Part shown: positions 4,241 to 58,926 of the stretch, piece after piece
How the letters are laid out: each line of letters opens with the position of its first letter
How positions within the stretch are numbered: position 1 is the stretch's first letter
Assembly (NCBI GenBank): GCA_947258655.1
Contig: CAMYJD010000005.1
Location: forward strand, 1 to 64,000
Direction: 5' to 3'
DNA: 64,000 bases
Source of the DNA: an uncultured Gammaproteobacteria bacterium
Lineage (GTDB): Bacteria > Pseudomonadota > Gammaproteobacteria > JAADHQ01
The notes under the pieces: model-generated
Database searches by the model: none
The model's input: the letters and a program-made list of their open reading frames with translations, nothing else
Told to the model about the DNA's origin: nothing
Translations under genes and position numbers: made by a program

Positions 4241-4798
4241 TCAATCCCTGACCGGTTCTGGCTGCAACCAGATCGCCGCCGCGAGTCCCATCAATAACAG
4301 GGCCAGTAACACAAACCAGGGGCCGAAATTGAGGAGCGTGCCGGCAAAACCGATATCAAACACACGCAGATACAGCATCCCCGAATGCAGCAATGCACCG
4401 AGAATAAAAAGCCAACTGATAATCTGTTTATACAACACCGGCGCTGCAAGAAAACATAATGTCAGGCCGGCAATGATATTGAGGACAGCCTCCAGATTCC
4501 CGTGTGCATGCGGCCCGCCCTTCATGTCATTAATCGGTGCGCGCGCATTGTCCAGCATACTCAGCGCGAGAATGCCACGGGTATTGGCCTGCGCGATCTG
4601 CTCTGCCGACATCGGATCCATGGTTTCCGGGTTTTCAAATTCTCCATCCGCCAACTGCTGTAAATAGCCGACATCCTTTTGTTTGATCTGCATTGCTCCA
4701 CCCATATCCGGGAACATGGTCTGTAACATGTACGGCCCCAGCGCCGCAGTAAACACCAGATAGATAAAACCAAATACGATATTCTTTTTACCAATCAT
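4241..4798 (-). CDS. Uncharacterised small membrane protein
   Basis: I do not recognise the family. From the ATG at 4798, which has GGAG eight bases upstream, the protein is 185 residues. An N-terminal hydrophobic helix (about residues 8-26) is followed by a hydrophilic loop of some 80 residues with DMGGAMQIKQKDVG and MDPMSAEQI. Three or four membrane segments make up the C-terminal half. A short histidine-containing stretch, KGGPHAHGNLEAVLNI, precedes the second hydrophobic segment. It stands alone, about 75 bp from pip. A farther upstream ATG at 4858 is possible but has no ribosome site. Confidence 0.8.
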   Translation of the reverse strand: MIGKKNIVFGFIYLVFTAALGPYMLQTMFPDMGGAMQIKQKDVGYLQQLADGEFENPETMDPMSAEQIAQANTRGILALSMLDNARAPINDMKGGPHAHGNLEAVLNIIAGLTLCFLAAPVLYKQIISWLFILGALLHSGMLYLRVFDIGFAGTLLNFGPWFVLLALLLMGLAAAIWLQPEPVRD

Positions 4799-4858
4799 AA
4801 TTTTCTCCACCCGTGTCGATATTTTTTTGAGCTGCAAATATGACATATAATGCAGCAA

Positions 4859-5013
4859 TTATATAGGGCTTTGCTGTACTGCTCCGAAGCCCTTTGTAAG
4901 AATCCCCCTACAACAACATCCGGGTTTCACCGACTTTAAATTTGCCGCAACTATGGCAGAATCAATGACATCAAAGTTAATTGCATGGATGGCAATTAAG
5001 CAAGGAGCATTCC
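4859..5013. other. Intergenic region upstream of the mini-ORF, with inverted repeat
   Basis: The stretch holds no protein gene. Its clearest structure is a perfect 8-bp inverted repeat, TTAATTGC at 4977-4984 and GCAATTAA at 4992-4999, separated by 7 nt. It ends two bases before the ribosome site of the 27-codon ORF at 5014. The position suggests an operator or a leader hairpin that could mask the ribosome site. I could not assign a convincing -35/-10 promoter. Confidence 0.4.
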
Positions 5014-5097
5014 ATGGTCTATGGACGGACGCCCATCACGGGATACGGATTTTCTATGATAGGCTCAATCACCTCTAGCCAGGTTTTGGCGCGATAG
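5014..5097 (+). CDS. Possible 27-residue mini-protein or leader peptide
   Basis: An ATG at 5014 is preceded by AAGGAG at 5002-5007 with a 6-nt spacer, a near-ideal ribosome site. The frame runs 27 codons, starting MVYGRTPITGYG and ending SSQVLAR, to TAG at 5095. The next base begins a strong rho-independent terminator. An 8-bp inverted repeat lies just upstream of the ribosome site. The product has no membrane segment and no cysteine and matches nothing I know; it is not a PqqA-like peptide, since it lacks the Glu and Tyr pair. It could encode a small protein, or the transcript could be a short regulatory RNA of which the ORF is incidental. Confidence 0.45.
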   Translation: MVYGRTPITGYGFSMIGSITSSQVLAR

Positions 5098-5123
5098 GCC
5101 CCGGTTTTCCGGGGCTTTTTTTT
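5098..5123 (+). terminator. Strong rho-independent terminator after the mini-ORF
   Basis: A perfect 7-bp GC stem, GCCCCGG at 5098-5104 and CCGGGGC at 5109-5115, has a TTTT loop and is followed by eight T residues (5116-5123). It abuts the TAG of the 27-codon ORF. Because no other plus-strand gene lies upstream for several kilobases, it must end a short transcript beginning in this intergenic region. Confidence 0.9.
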
Positions 5124-5383
5124 ATTGCGGATTAACAATCGATCATTTGAAAACGATATACATGGTGAGGCAAGAAGTGTGCTTGTTTCGGATTTATCCT
5201 ACAAAGATTAGAGATATTTACCGACTGTTCTTTATCTGCACTTCGACCATACTTACAGCGTAGGATGATTGAAGGATAGCAATCTCAATACGAATGGAAG
5301 ATTTCATATCCACGGACAGGAGATCAGTCAGGGACATGGAGAACTACTGATTGATCGCTGTAAAATACCCCCCTTTTTTTACA
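5124..5383. other. Non-coding stretch between two terminators
   Basis: About 260 bases without a credible gene. One frame beginning at a TTG near 5269 stays open through the following terminator, but it has no family resemblance I can name and reads like a decayed fragment. There is no tRNA or recognisable structured RNA. Confidence 0.5.
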
Positions 5384-5423
5384 GCAATAAAAAACCCGGC
5401 ATCGCGTCCGGGTTTTTTATTGC
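5384..5423. terminator. Bidirectional terminator downstream of typA
   Basis: A 16-bp perfect inverted repeat runs from GCAATAAAAAACCCGG at 5384-5399 to CCGGGTTTTTTATTGC at 5408-5423, with an 8-nt loop. The A/T flanks provide a T-run on both strands, so it can end typA transcripts on the minus strand and plus-strand transcripts from the intergenic region. Confidence 0.9.
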
Positions 5424-5477: not shown

Positions 5478-7298
5478 CTAATCATTCGCGGCACGTGCCG
5501 CCTTTTTCCGCTCATGCTCGAGCAGATATTTCTTGCGTATACGGATAAAATGCGGCGTGACCTCGACCAGCTCATCATCATCGATGAATTCCAGGGCCTG
5601 TTCCAGCGACTGCTTGATCGGTGGCGTCAGGACCACATTTTCATCGGTCCCCGAGGCACGTACATTGGTCAGCTGTTTGCCCTTAAGTGGATTGACGACC
5701 AGGTCGTTATCACGCGAATGGATGCCAATCACCATGCCTTCGTACAGTTCATCACCGTGGCTGACAAACAGGCGTCCGCGCTCCTGCAAGCTGAACAGTG
5801 AATAACCAACAGCCTTACCGGCACCATTGGAAATCAGTACACCGTTGATGCGCTTGCCATAATCGCCCTTTTTCACCGGACCATAGTGATCAAACACGCT
5901 ATATAGCAAACCGGTGCCCTGGGTTGCGGTCATAAACTCGGTACGAAAACCGATCAGGCCACGGGCGGGCATGATGTAATCCAGGCGCACCCGGCCTTTA
6001 CCGTCCGGCATCATGTTCTTCAGGTCGCCGCCGCGAATGCCGAGCTTTTCCATGACCCCGCCCTGATGCTGTTCCTCGACATCCACGGTCAGCTGTTCAA
6101 AGGGCTCCTGCTTTTCGCCATCGACTTCCCTGACAATGACCTCGGGACGTGATACACCAAGTTCGTAGCCTTCACGACGCATGGTCTCGATCAGCACGGA
6201 CAGATGCAGTTCGCCTCGACCGGATACGCGGAACTTGTCCGGGTCATCGGTCTGTTCGACACGCAGCGCGACGTTATGCACCAGCTCACGTTCGAGTCGG
6301 TCCTTGATCTGACGGGAGGTGACAAATTTGCCGTCCTGGCCGGCCAGCGGCGACTTGTTGACCTGGAAGGTCATGCTGACCGTCGGCTCATCAACGCTCA
6401 GCGCCGGCAAGACCTCGACATGCTCGGGATCGCATAGCGTATCGGAGATATTCAGTTTTTCGATACCGGTAAACGCGATAATATCACCCGCCTGCGCCTG
6501 TTCCACTTCGACGCGCTCGAGGCCAAGAAAACCGAAAATCTGCAACATGCGCCCGTTACGGGAATTACCTTCCCTGTCGACGAGCGTGACACTGGCATTC
6601 TTGTTGACCCTGCCACGCTTGATACGACCGACACCGATGACGCCGACATAGCTGTTATAGTCCAAGCTCGTGACCTGCATCTGGAACGTACCCTCGGTAT
6701 CCACATCCGGCGCTTCCACCTCGTTGACGATGGTTTCGAACAACGGCGTCATATCGCCGTCACGGGTGTCACTGTCCAGCGATGCAAATCCCTGGATCGC
6801 CGACGCATAGACGATCGGGAAATCGAGTTGTTCATCGGTCGCACCGAGTTGATCGAACAGATCGAAGGTCTGGTCCACGACCCAGTCCGGGCGTGAACCG
6901 GTTTTGTCGACCTTGTTGACAACAACAATCGGTTTCAGACCCAGATCAAAGGCCTTTTGGGTAACAAAACGCGTCTGTGGCATCGGCCCCTCAACTGCAT
7001 CGACAAGCAGCAGCACGCTGTCGACCATCGACAATACGCGCTCCACCTCGCCACCGAAGTCGGCATGCCCAGGGGTATCGACGATATTGATATGGTAGCC
7101 ATTCCAGTCGATCGCGGTGTTCTTGGACAGGATCGTGATGCCGCGTTCCTTTTCCAGGTCGTTGGAATCCATCAGACGTTCGGTCGGCGCGGCACGCTCG
7201 TCGAGGGTACCGGACTGCTGCAGGAGTTTATCGACCAGCGTCGTCTTGCCATGGTCGACGTGGGCTATGATGGCTATATTTCTGAGTTTCTCGTTCAC
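5478..7298 (-). CDS. typA: Ribosome-associated translational GTPase BipA/TypA
   Basis: This elongation-factor-like GTPase assists 50S subunit assembly and stress and cold adaptation. The 606-residue length is standard. The GTPase domain shows G1 [10 protein letters not shown], switch I with RGITIL, G3 [15 protein letters not shown] and G4 NKVDK. EF-Tu domain-2, EF-G domain III/V-like regions ([29 protein letters not shown]) and the BipA-specific C-terminal domain ending in a basic tail follow. It is monocistronic, with the terminator at 5384-5423 downstream. Confidence 0.98.
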
Positions 7299-57314: not shown

Positions 57315-58926
57315 GCCAGAACAAGCCAGTGAAACAATCACCGATTTGTCGCCGGAAGCGGACGCTACACCCTACCTTGAAGCGCTCAAGATCCCAACAT
57401 ACCCCTTTGCTGTCGAAATTGAGCAGTCATCCTTTTATCTGGATGCTGCGCGTGAAAAACTGCTGAACCAGTTATTGCATCTTGCCCAGTCCAGTGGTCT
57501 ACTGCTGGTCGTATCCGCCGAAGATGGTTGCGGCAAGACAACCCTGCTGTCACAGTTCATGCAGCGCGCAGGTTCAGCACTCAGGTGCTGTCCGATCAGT
57601 GCCGGGCCATCGATGACTGAACAACAGTTATTGGCAAAAATGGGAGCATGCCTTGAACTGCCCGAAAACCTGAACAAGACAGCGGCCCTGAAGCTGCTTG
57701 AGGACCAGGCCTTCATCCTGCAGCGAAATGATCTGTTGCCGGTAATGCTGATAGATGATGCACATACACTTCCCGCTGACACACTGGCATTACTGCTGCA
57801 ATTGCAACGTAGTGATAATACCGATGAAAATAGCGCCGACAGTCCCTGGAAGATAGTCCTGTTCACGCATCCGGGCTTGACCGCGGAACTGATGCAGCTA
57901 AATGCACGTATGCATTTTATTCATCTGCCGGCCATGGATGAACAACAAACTGCAAAATATCTTTTACACAGACTGCGCATGGCCGGATTTAAACAGGAGT
58001 CGCCATTCACTGATAGGGATATAGCATTCATTCATAAACATGCACAGGGCAATCTGGCCCAGGTACATCAACTCGCCCACCAGGTATTATTGAAAAAACA
58101 CACAAGGATACGGAAACCGATGGAGCAGAAACAAATGGACAAACCAGGACTGAAAATCAAGCCTGGCGTATGGCTTTCAATCATCGCTGTAATCATCCTC
58201 TCCATGATTCTTTTTTTTCAGGAGCGCATCAACAAGGTCGTCGATAGTGCAAATACAACGGAGCTGGCTTTACCACAAGATAGCCTGGAAATACCGACCG
58301 CACAGGAGTACATACTGAAAAAAATACCTGATCCGGAACCAAAACTGGTCGACATCACCGGCACGGCAAAGGACAAGGCCATGGCCGATAGTGAAGACAA
58401 GAGCATTGAACAGCCAGCCACTGCAACCACCATCGAACAGCAACATACCGAAGCCAGGCCGAAGCAGTTAGCTGCCAAAGAGGAAACGACGGAAAAATCG
58501 CTACCTACTACCGACACTGTGACTACAACCGTTGCTATCCAGCCACCCGAGCAAAGTAAACCTGCACCTGTCACTAAAAACAAGGCTGCGGCGAAGCTCG
58601 AGACCATGCTCCAACGTCATCGGATCCATGACAAGTCATGGATCATGCAGCAATCCCCTGCGACATTCACCGCACAATTGATAGGCTCATCCACAGCCGA
58701 GACCTTGTACAGACTGGCAAAAAATCCCGCCATGGGGGACAAAGCGGCCATTTATCATGTCCTCAGAAACGGCAAGGACTGGTATGTGCTGATCTATGGA
58801 AACTACCCTGACAAGGAAACCATCAGAAAAGCAGTGGCCAAACTCCCCGCCAGCCTGCGTAAGGGCGGACCATGGTTGCGCAACTTCGAGGCTGTGCAAG
58901 CAGAAATCAGGGCCGGTAAAAAATAA
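57304..58926 (+). CDS. AAA+ ATPase with SPOR domain (DamX-like)
   Basis: This protein of about 540 residues has an ExeA-like AAA domain with Walker A SAEDGCGKTTLLSQF and Walker B VMLIDDAHTLP. A membrane helix follows near residue 280 (VWLSIIAVIILSMILFF), a Thr/Glu-rich linker, and a C-terminal SPOR domain (FTAQLIGSSTAETLYRLA, DWYVLIYGNYPDKETIRKAV) that binds denuded septal peptidoglycan. The likely start is TTG 57304, preceded by AAGGTGA six bases upstream and overlapping the WGR gene; the ATG at 57268 lies inside that gene. It fits the DamX position next to aroB, though dam itself is absent here. Confidence 0.87.
   Translation: MQNKPEQASETITDLSPEADATPYLEALKIPTYPFAVEIEQSSFYLDAAREKLLNQLLHLAQSSGLLLVVSAEDGCGKTTLLSQFMQRAGSALRCCPISAGPSMTEQQLLAKMGACLELPENLNKTAALKLLEDQAFILQRNDLLPVMLIDDAHTLPADTLALLLQLQRSDNTDENSADSPWKIVLFTHPGLTAELMQLNARMHFIHLPAMDEQQTAKYLLHRLRMAGFKQESPFTDRDIAFIHKHAQGNLAQVHQLAHQVLLKKHTRIRKPMEQKQMDKPGLKIKPGVWLSIIAVIILSMILFFQERINKVVDSANTTELALPQDSLEIPTAQEYILKKIPDPEPKLVDITGTAKDKAMADSEDKSIEQPATATTIEQQHTEARPKQLAAKEETTEKSLPTTDTVTTTVAIQPPEQSKPAPVTKNKAAAKLETMLQRHRIHDKSWIMQQSPATFTAQLIGSSTAETLYRLAKNPAMGDKAAIYHVLRNGKDWYVLIYGNYPDKETIRKAVAKLPASLRKGGPWLRNFEAVQAEIRAGKK

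Follow-up and report, generated by a model that had tools for sequence, protein, structure and literature searches.

A predicted GacA-controlled CsrA-sponge RNA gene beside typA in an uncultured gammaproteobacterium

Sequence similarity among the Csr/Rsm sponge RNAs is so slight that they are difficult to find. The consensus for GacA/UvrY is given as TGTAAG-N6-CTTACA in passages of PMC4682653 and PMC4950607, and in Pseudomonas tandem copies of rsmX are known, one of which was found by a similar box search (from passages of PMC7911923). McaS of Escherichia coli, which is reported to combine CsrA binding with base pairing, is named as a dual-function RNA in PMC9788540. The locus considered here lies in a window, the whole stretch of DNA that was analysed, of 64,000 nucleotides from an uncultured gammaproteobacterium, and a preliminary description took it for a 27-codon mini-gene with its own ribosome site, inverted repeat, and terminator. 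Judged from sequence, the feature is a real functional unit that was misread, an RNA gene and not a mini-gene; it is very probably a GacA-activated non-coding RNA gene of about 155 nt, similar to RsmY/Z or CsrB, the product of which would sequester CsrA. The features on which this assignment is based are collected in Table 1.

Table 1. Predicted features of the typA-linked locus (positions in the window; "." denotes a feature not assigned to a strand)
Feature	Position	Strand	Evidence
GacA/UvrY-type palindrome TGTAAG-AATCCC-CCTACA, first RNA	4895..4912	.	12/12, conserved in relatives
Candidate promoter region: CNGAC element, TGGCA..AT -10-like region	4932..4963	+	conserved columns, 11-sequence alignment
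First CsrA-sponge RNA gene (predicted)	4970..5123	+	6 GGA, 5 ANGGA, conserved fold
5' hairpin (the inverted repeat), loop GGA at 4987-4989	4977..4999	+	double-sided pair changes, three genomes
AAGGAG, GGA motif	5002..5007	+	sequence; kept in G003, AGGAAG in G001
Invariant 3' block CACCTCTAGCCAGGTTTTGGC	5070..5090	+	CACCTC-N-AGCCA in 13 genomes, 8 families
Intrinsic terminator, first RNA	5096..5123	+	terminator scan; CCCCGG/CCGGGG stem conserved
Degenerate GacA-type box TTTCGG-ATTTAT-CCTACA, second RNA	5186..5203	.	10/12
Second, tandem CsrA-sponge RNA gene (predicted)	5260..5420 (about)	+	7 GGA, own terminator; also in G003

Every element named in the preliminary description is present in the sequence at its given place. 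The arms of the inverted repeat are TTAATTGC (4977-4984) and GCAATTAA (4992-4999), the ATG at 5014 opens a frame of 27 codons that is closed by TAG at 5095-5097, and the TAG is followed by a GC-rich stem from 5098 and then by eight T, a region in which the terminator scan places 9 pairs (7 of them G-C) at 5096-5117. The 147-nt stretch folds modestly better than its shuffles (z −2.18; 5 of 200 shuffles equal it). A short ATG open reading frame with a purine-rich stretch upstream is by itself unremarkable; what does stand above chance is a pair of features that the first reading did not name, a cluster of ANGGA motifs and a perfect GacA-type palindrome.

Comparison with relatives separates the RNA from the reading frame. 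A DNA search within the genus matched G003 with 79% identity across nearly the whole query and G001 with 76% identity, and gave no match in G002, a genome that is 79% complete. At the position of the ATG, these two relatives, the ones that have the locus, read AAA/AAG, both have a 1-nt indel inside the 27-codon frame, and in G003 the frame leading into the stop contains a TAA. By comparison, GGCTCAATCACCTCTAGCCAG is base-for-base identical across the three genomes, and the conserved 3' block in G047 contains one inserted base. Given this identity and the loss of the ATG and the frame in the relatives, it is therefore the RNA that is conserved and not the frame, the very outcome that the preliminary description had named as refuting its reading. 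The alternative, a gene for a small protein of 27 codons that has an operator and a terminator to itself, draws on the ATG, the suitably spaced AAGGAG, and the abutting terminator, but it is hardly credible in the light of these changes and was dropped on the frame loss; as far as conservation is concerned, the sequence comparison already refutes it. The other possibility raised at the outset, a small RNA with an incidental open reading frame, is the one favored, and the AAGGAG is better taken as one of the six GGA motifs of the RNA than as a ribosome site. This may serve as a warning for first-pass scans of sequence, in which mini-genes can be apparent because the GGA motifs of sponge RNAs mimic ribosome binding sites.

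The five ANGGA motifs of the first RNA fall within 65 nt, and none of 2000 dinucleotide-shuffled versions of the RNA attains five; the plain count of six GGA is less striking, being reached by 120 of 2000. For the RNA of G003, 487 of 2000 shuffles reached the GGA count and 108 the ANGGA count. The structure examined on the three-genome alignment consists of the 5' hairpin, two further hairpins with GGA, a GCCA/UGGC hairpin, and the terminator; 96.7% of its cells are paired and four pairs are changed on both sides, whereas versions of the structure slid along the alignment reach at most 48.9% pairing and at most one double-sided change, and values as high as those observed came up in 12 of 500 shuffles. 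RNAalifold recovers the same helices unprompted, and the consensus fold places GGA motifs in hairpin loops. By eye, each of six RNAs (four of the first kind and two of the second) can be drawn with a 5' hairpin that has a loop GGA; this hairpin is absent from the minimum-energy fold computed for the window RNA alone. The probability that GGA is unpaired is 0.48 in the window RNA against an average of 0.46, only a slight excess; it is above average in 12 of the 13 members of the family described below and below average in G183.

Three of the four pairs changed on both sides belong to the 5' hairpin, and it pairs in the same register in all three genomes. The inverted repeat, proposed as an operator or translational switch, is better taken as a putative 5' CsrA-binding hairpin. 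The reading as a DNA operator or attenuator was set aside on two grounds: the compensatory changes in the paired arms together with the GGA in the loop, and the absence, from the list of open reading frames, of any gene of at least 60 amino acids on the + strand between the RNA and the convergent typA (5478-7298, − strand; TypA above cut-off). The same absence makes a role as a leader unlikely. On its other side, the RNA is flanked by a divergent open reading frame of 205 amino acids (4241-4858, − strand), which has no match in Pfam or NCBIfam, and it stands alone on the + strand between these two genes. In several families the 205-residue open reading frame keeps its place, with the RNA on one side and pip on the other.

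The 18-bp palindrome at 4895-4912 sits about 75 bp upstream of the first RNA and is the sole 12/12 match to TGTRRG-N6-CYTACA within the 64-kb window. Its counterparts are TGTAAG-AATCAT-CCTACA in G003 and TGTAGG-ATAATT-CCTACA in G001, and, as a positive control, the same scan finds the box of E. coli csrB as a 12/12 match at −191. Conserved columns mark a candidate promoter region between the palindrome and the RNA, in which a sigma-70 scan detected no promoter-like site; transcription would start near 4970. The genome encodes CsrA (119 bits, cut-off 73) and a regulator of the UvrY/SirA/GacA family (309 bits, cut-off 280) that is 57% identical to UvrY of E. coli across 211 residues. For a hybrid kinase the best model is BarA, with a score of 628 bits that is below that model's cut-off of 890, and the protein is described here as BarA-like. 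A second, weaker CsrA-family protein of 69 amino acids, with a longer middle part, is encoded at C4:188283-188489 (L022) of the same genome and is also found in G001, G003, and G047; it scores 48 bits with Pfam CsrA and is below the NCBIfam CsrA cut-offs.

These components suggest a mechanism in which phosphorylated UvrY/GacA would bind the palindrome and turn on transcription from about 4970, to end at the terminator. The RNA would offer GGA motifs, held in the loops of hairpins and in unpaired linkers, to dimers of CsrA, which would be drawn off the leaders of mRNAs so that CsrA-repressed genes are freed. A divergent second RNA gene, equipped with a separate box and terminator, follows immediately downstream and would increase the dose.

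This second RNA has five ANGGA motifs, a number that 18 of 2000 shuffles equal or exceed, and its terminator, at about 5388-5420, may double as that of the convergent typA. Both RNAs are present in G003, where the box of the second reads TTTCGG-ATTAAT-CCTACA at the same place; in G001 there is no second RNA, and the end of typA is within about 60 bases of the first terminator. Only three stretches in the 64 kb, both strands considered, have five ANGGA in 155 nt, and two of these are the tandem RNAs. The third of them (58015-58139) lies inside a 552-codon open reading frame and was rejected as an RNA. Over 60 simulated windows, the mean number of such clusters was 1.28 per window; that of clusters accompanied by a box scoring 10/12 or better was 0.05, and none of the latter had a T-run in addition.

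In the whole genome there are four exact boxes of the GacA type, and the search for them led to a third predicted Rsm-like RNA, which follows the exact palindrome TGTAGG-AATATT-CCTACA at C39:10200. This RNA, at about 10370-10465 of C39 in the genome of the window (G000; L054, 1660-1775), has a terminator as well as nine GGA and seven ANGGA in 160 nt, and adjoins fdxA (FdxA 171 bits, cut-off 135). The third RNA and its counterpart in G001 (L028) fold far better than their shuffles (z −5.1 and −5.0; 0 of 200 in each case). Near the counterpart, at L028:2393-2519, there is a match to the TwoAYGGAY motif, which shares an Rfam clan with CsrC, at 40.4 bits with a cut-off of 43. The two remaining exact palindromes (C16:20648 and C16:23152) lie 2.5 kb apart, have no ANGGA cluster after either, and are possibly other GacA targets or repeats.

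To follow the first RNA across the class, a model (R1) was built from three RNAs, which account for three of the 13 members finally recognized, and was run against 369 genomes of the class. It gave 38 matches in 35 genomes at E ≤ 0.01, of which 30 were inspected; the eight left out include second matches in G003 and G183, two genomes retained on their first matches. Twelve of the 35 genomes carry the 3' block and were kept, and the other 18 inspected loci, without the block, were counted as chance. A looser pattern of block plus terminator found 17 of the 369 genomes, from which 12 were kept and five (G303, G322, G248, G355, and G337) dropped, having no T-run, a best box of at most 9/12, and at most four GGA; the reversed pattern, as a control, hit two genomes. 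A search with the exact block was too strict, with two stretches in genome contigs and three of the 369 class genomes. The two main searches together give 13 genomes in eight families (f1: G000, G001, and G003; f2: G004, G161, and G271; f41: G043; f45: G047 and G187; f67: G069; f138: G140; f165: G183; f179: G347), with G004 found by the model only and G347 by the pattern only.

All 13 members have a box scoring 9-12 out of 12, 5-16 GGA, and a T-run, and all are near at least one of typA, the prolyl aminopeptidase gene pip, and the D-aminoacyl-tRNA deacylase gene dtd. These neighbors score above NCBIfam cut-offs in the window (typA, pip, and dtd) and, for dtd, in G043, G183, and G347; those of the other members were identified by eye from their likeness to the ones named by NCBIfam. 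Two members, G140 with 16 GGA and G347 with 13, are long and resemble CsrB. Another kind of small RNA, trans-acting or a cis-acting leader, in which the GGA motifs are incidental, would account for the conserved non-GGA block and the strong terminator, and the GGA counts are weak on their own; it is nevertheless very unlikely in view of the GacA-type box in every member, the ANGGA clusters, the GGA in hairpin loops, and the two CsrB-like members.

In a search of Rfam 15, no family reached its gathering score and there were no matches in the window, so that membership of RsmX, RsmY, RsmZ, CsrB, or CsrC is not indicated; the best score for a sponge-type family was 19 bits for rsmX (cut-off 56). 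Weak matches to ncr1015, STnc370, rimP, and others resemble terminator matches or chance and were set aside. A sponge RNA linked to typA or dtd was not found in the literature covered, mostly the openings of abstracts together with passages of PMC2375449, PMC4682653, PMC4950607, PMC4353343, PMC5568370, PMC11882849, PMC7911923, PMC12889724, and PMC9788540. Within the compass of Rfam and this partial literature, the typA/pip/dtd-linked family, the tandem pair, and the invariant block appear to be new.

In all 13 members CACCUC-N-AGCCA lies directly before the terminator. It should be recognized that the constancy of the block is partly a product of selection, because the pattern required the block and the matches of the model were sorted by it; the independent part of the observation is the fixed position of the block among members in which box, GGA cluster, and neighbors are likewise present. 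Neither the tandem partner nor the third RNA contains CACCTC, and in csrB it occurs solely within a GGA hairpin. That a protein sponge should keep a short element without GGA unchanged is a puzzle. The block may act as a seed directed at ribosome binding sites, or it may mark a site of protein binding or of processing.

If it were a seed, the RNA would have a dual function, with GGA hairpins that sequester CsrA and a block, complementary to Shine-Dalgarno sequences, that base-pairs with mRNAs. No other part of the RNA is as well conserved as the block, which is not a GGA site, and AUCACCUCC, present in several members, is shared with the 16S rRNA 3' end of E. coli; a pattern for the 16S 3' end found nothing in four genomes, and the E. 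coli 16S was therefore used for comparison. The mean unpaired probability of the block is above 0.5 in seven of the 13 members, but the block is mostly paired in five (0.24-0.44) and stands at 0.50 in one, and a role in protein binding or processing is a possible alternative. The dual function is accordingly a possible, if doubtful, extension of the sponge assignment. The broader proposition, that there is a GacA-controlled sponge family linked to typA, pip, or dtd, of an age to span at least eight gammaproteobacterial families, all its members having an invariant tail block complementary to Shine-Dalgarno sequences, we regard as unlikely; if true, one and the same RNA would release mRNAs from CsrA and also target ribosome binding sites directly. 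The combination of a fixed gene neighborhood, a GacA box, and a short invariant 3' block offers a handle on sponge RNAs in lineages known mostly from metagenomes.

The window RNA is like RsmX, RsmY, and RsmZ of Pseudomonas in its size, in having several GGA in loops, a GacA palindrome upstream, and an intrinsic terminator, and in the presence of multiple copies per genome, with the tandem arrangement known for rsmX. It differs from them in its location beside typA, pip, or dtd, in having CACCUC-N-AGCCA, and in having no Rfam match at gathering score. With CsrB and CsrC of E. coli it shares a UvrY palindrome upstream and many GGA, and the RNAs of G140 and G347 are equally rich in GGA; the window RNA, with about 155 nt and 6 GGA, is shorter and has fewer GGA than csrB, with 369 nt and 22 GGA. 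The third RNA, as distinct from the window RNA, adjoins fdxA in the arrangement of Pseudomonas fdxA-rsmZ and Alcanivorax fdx-CsrR2, whereas CsrR1 of Alcanivorax comes from the 5' untranslated region of hfq, unlike the typA-region RNA of the window. Should the conserved block prove to be a seed, McaS would be the model for the window RNA.
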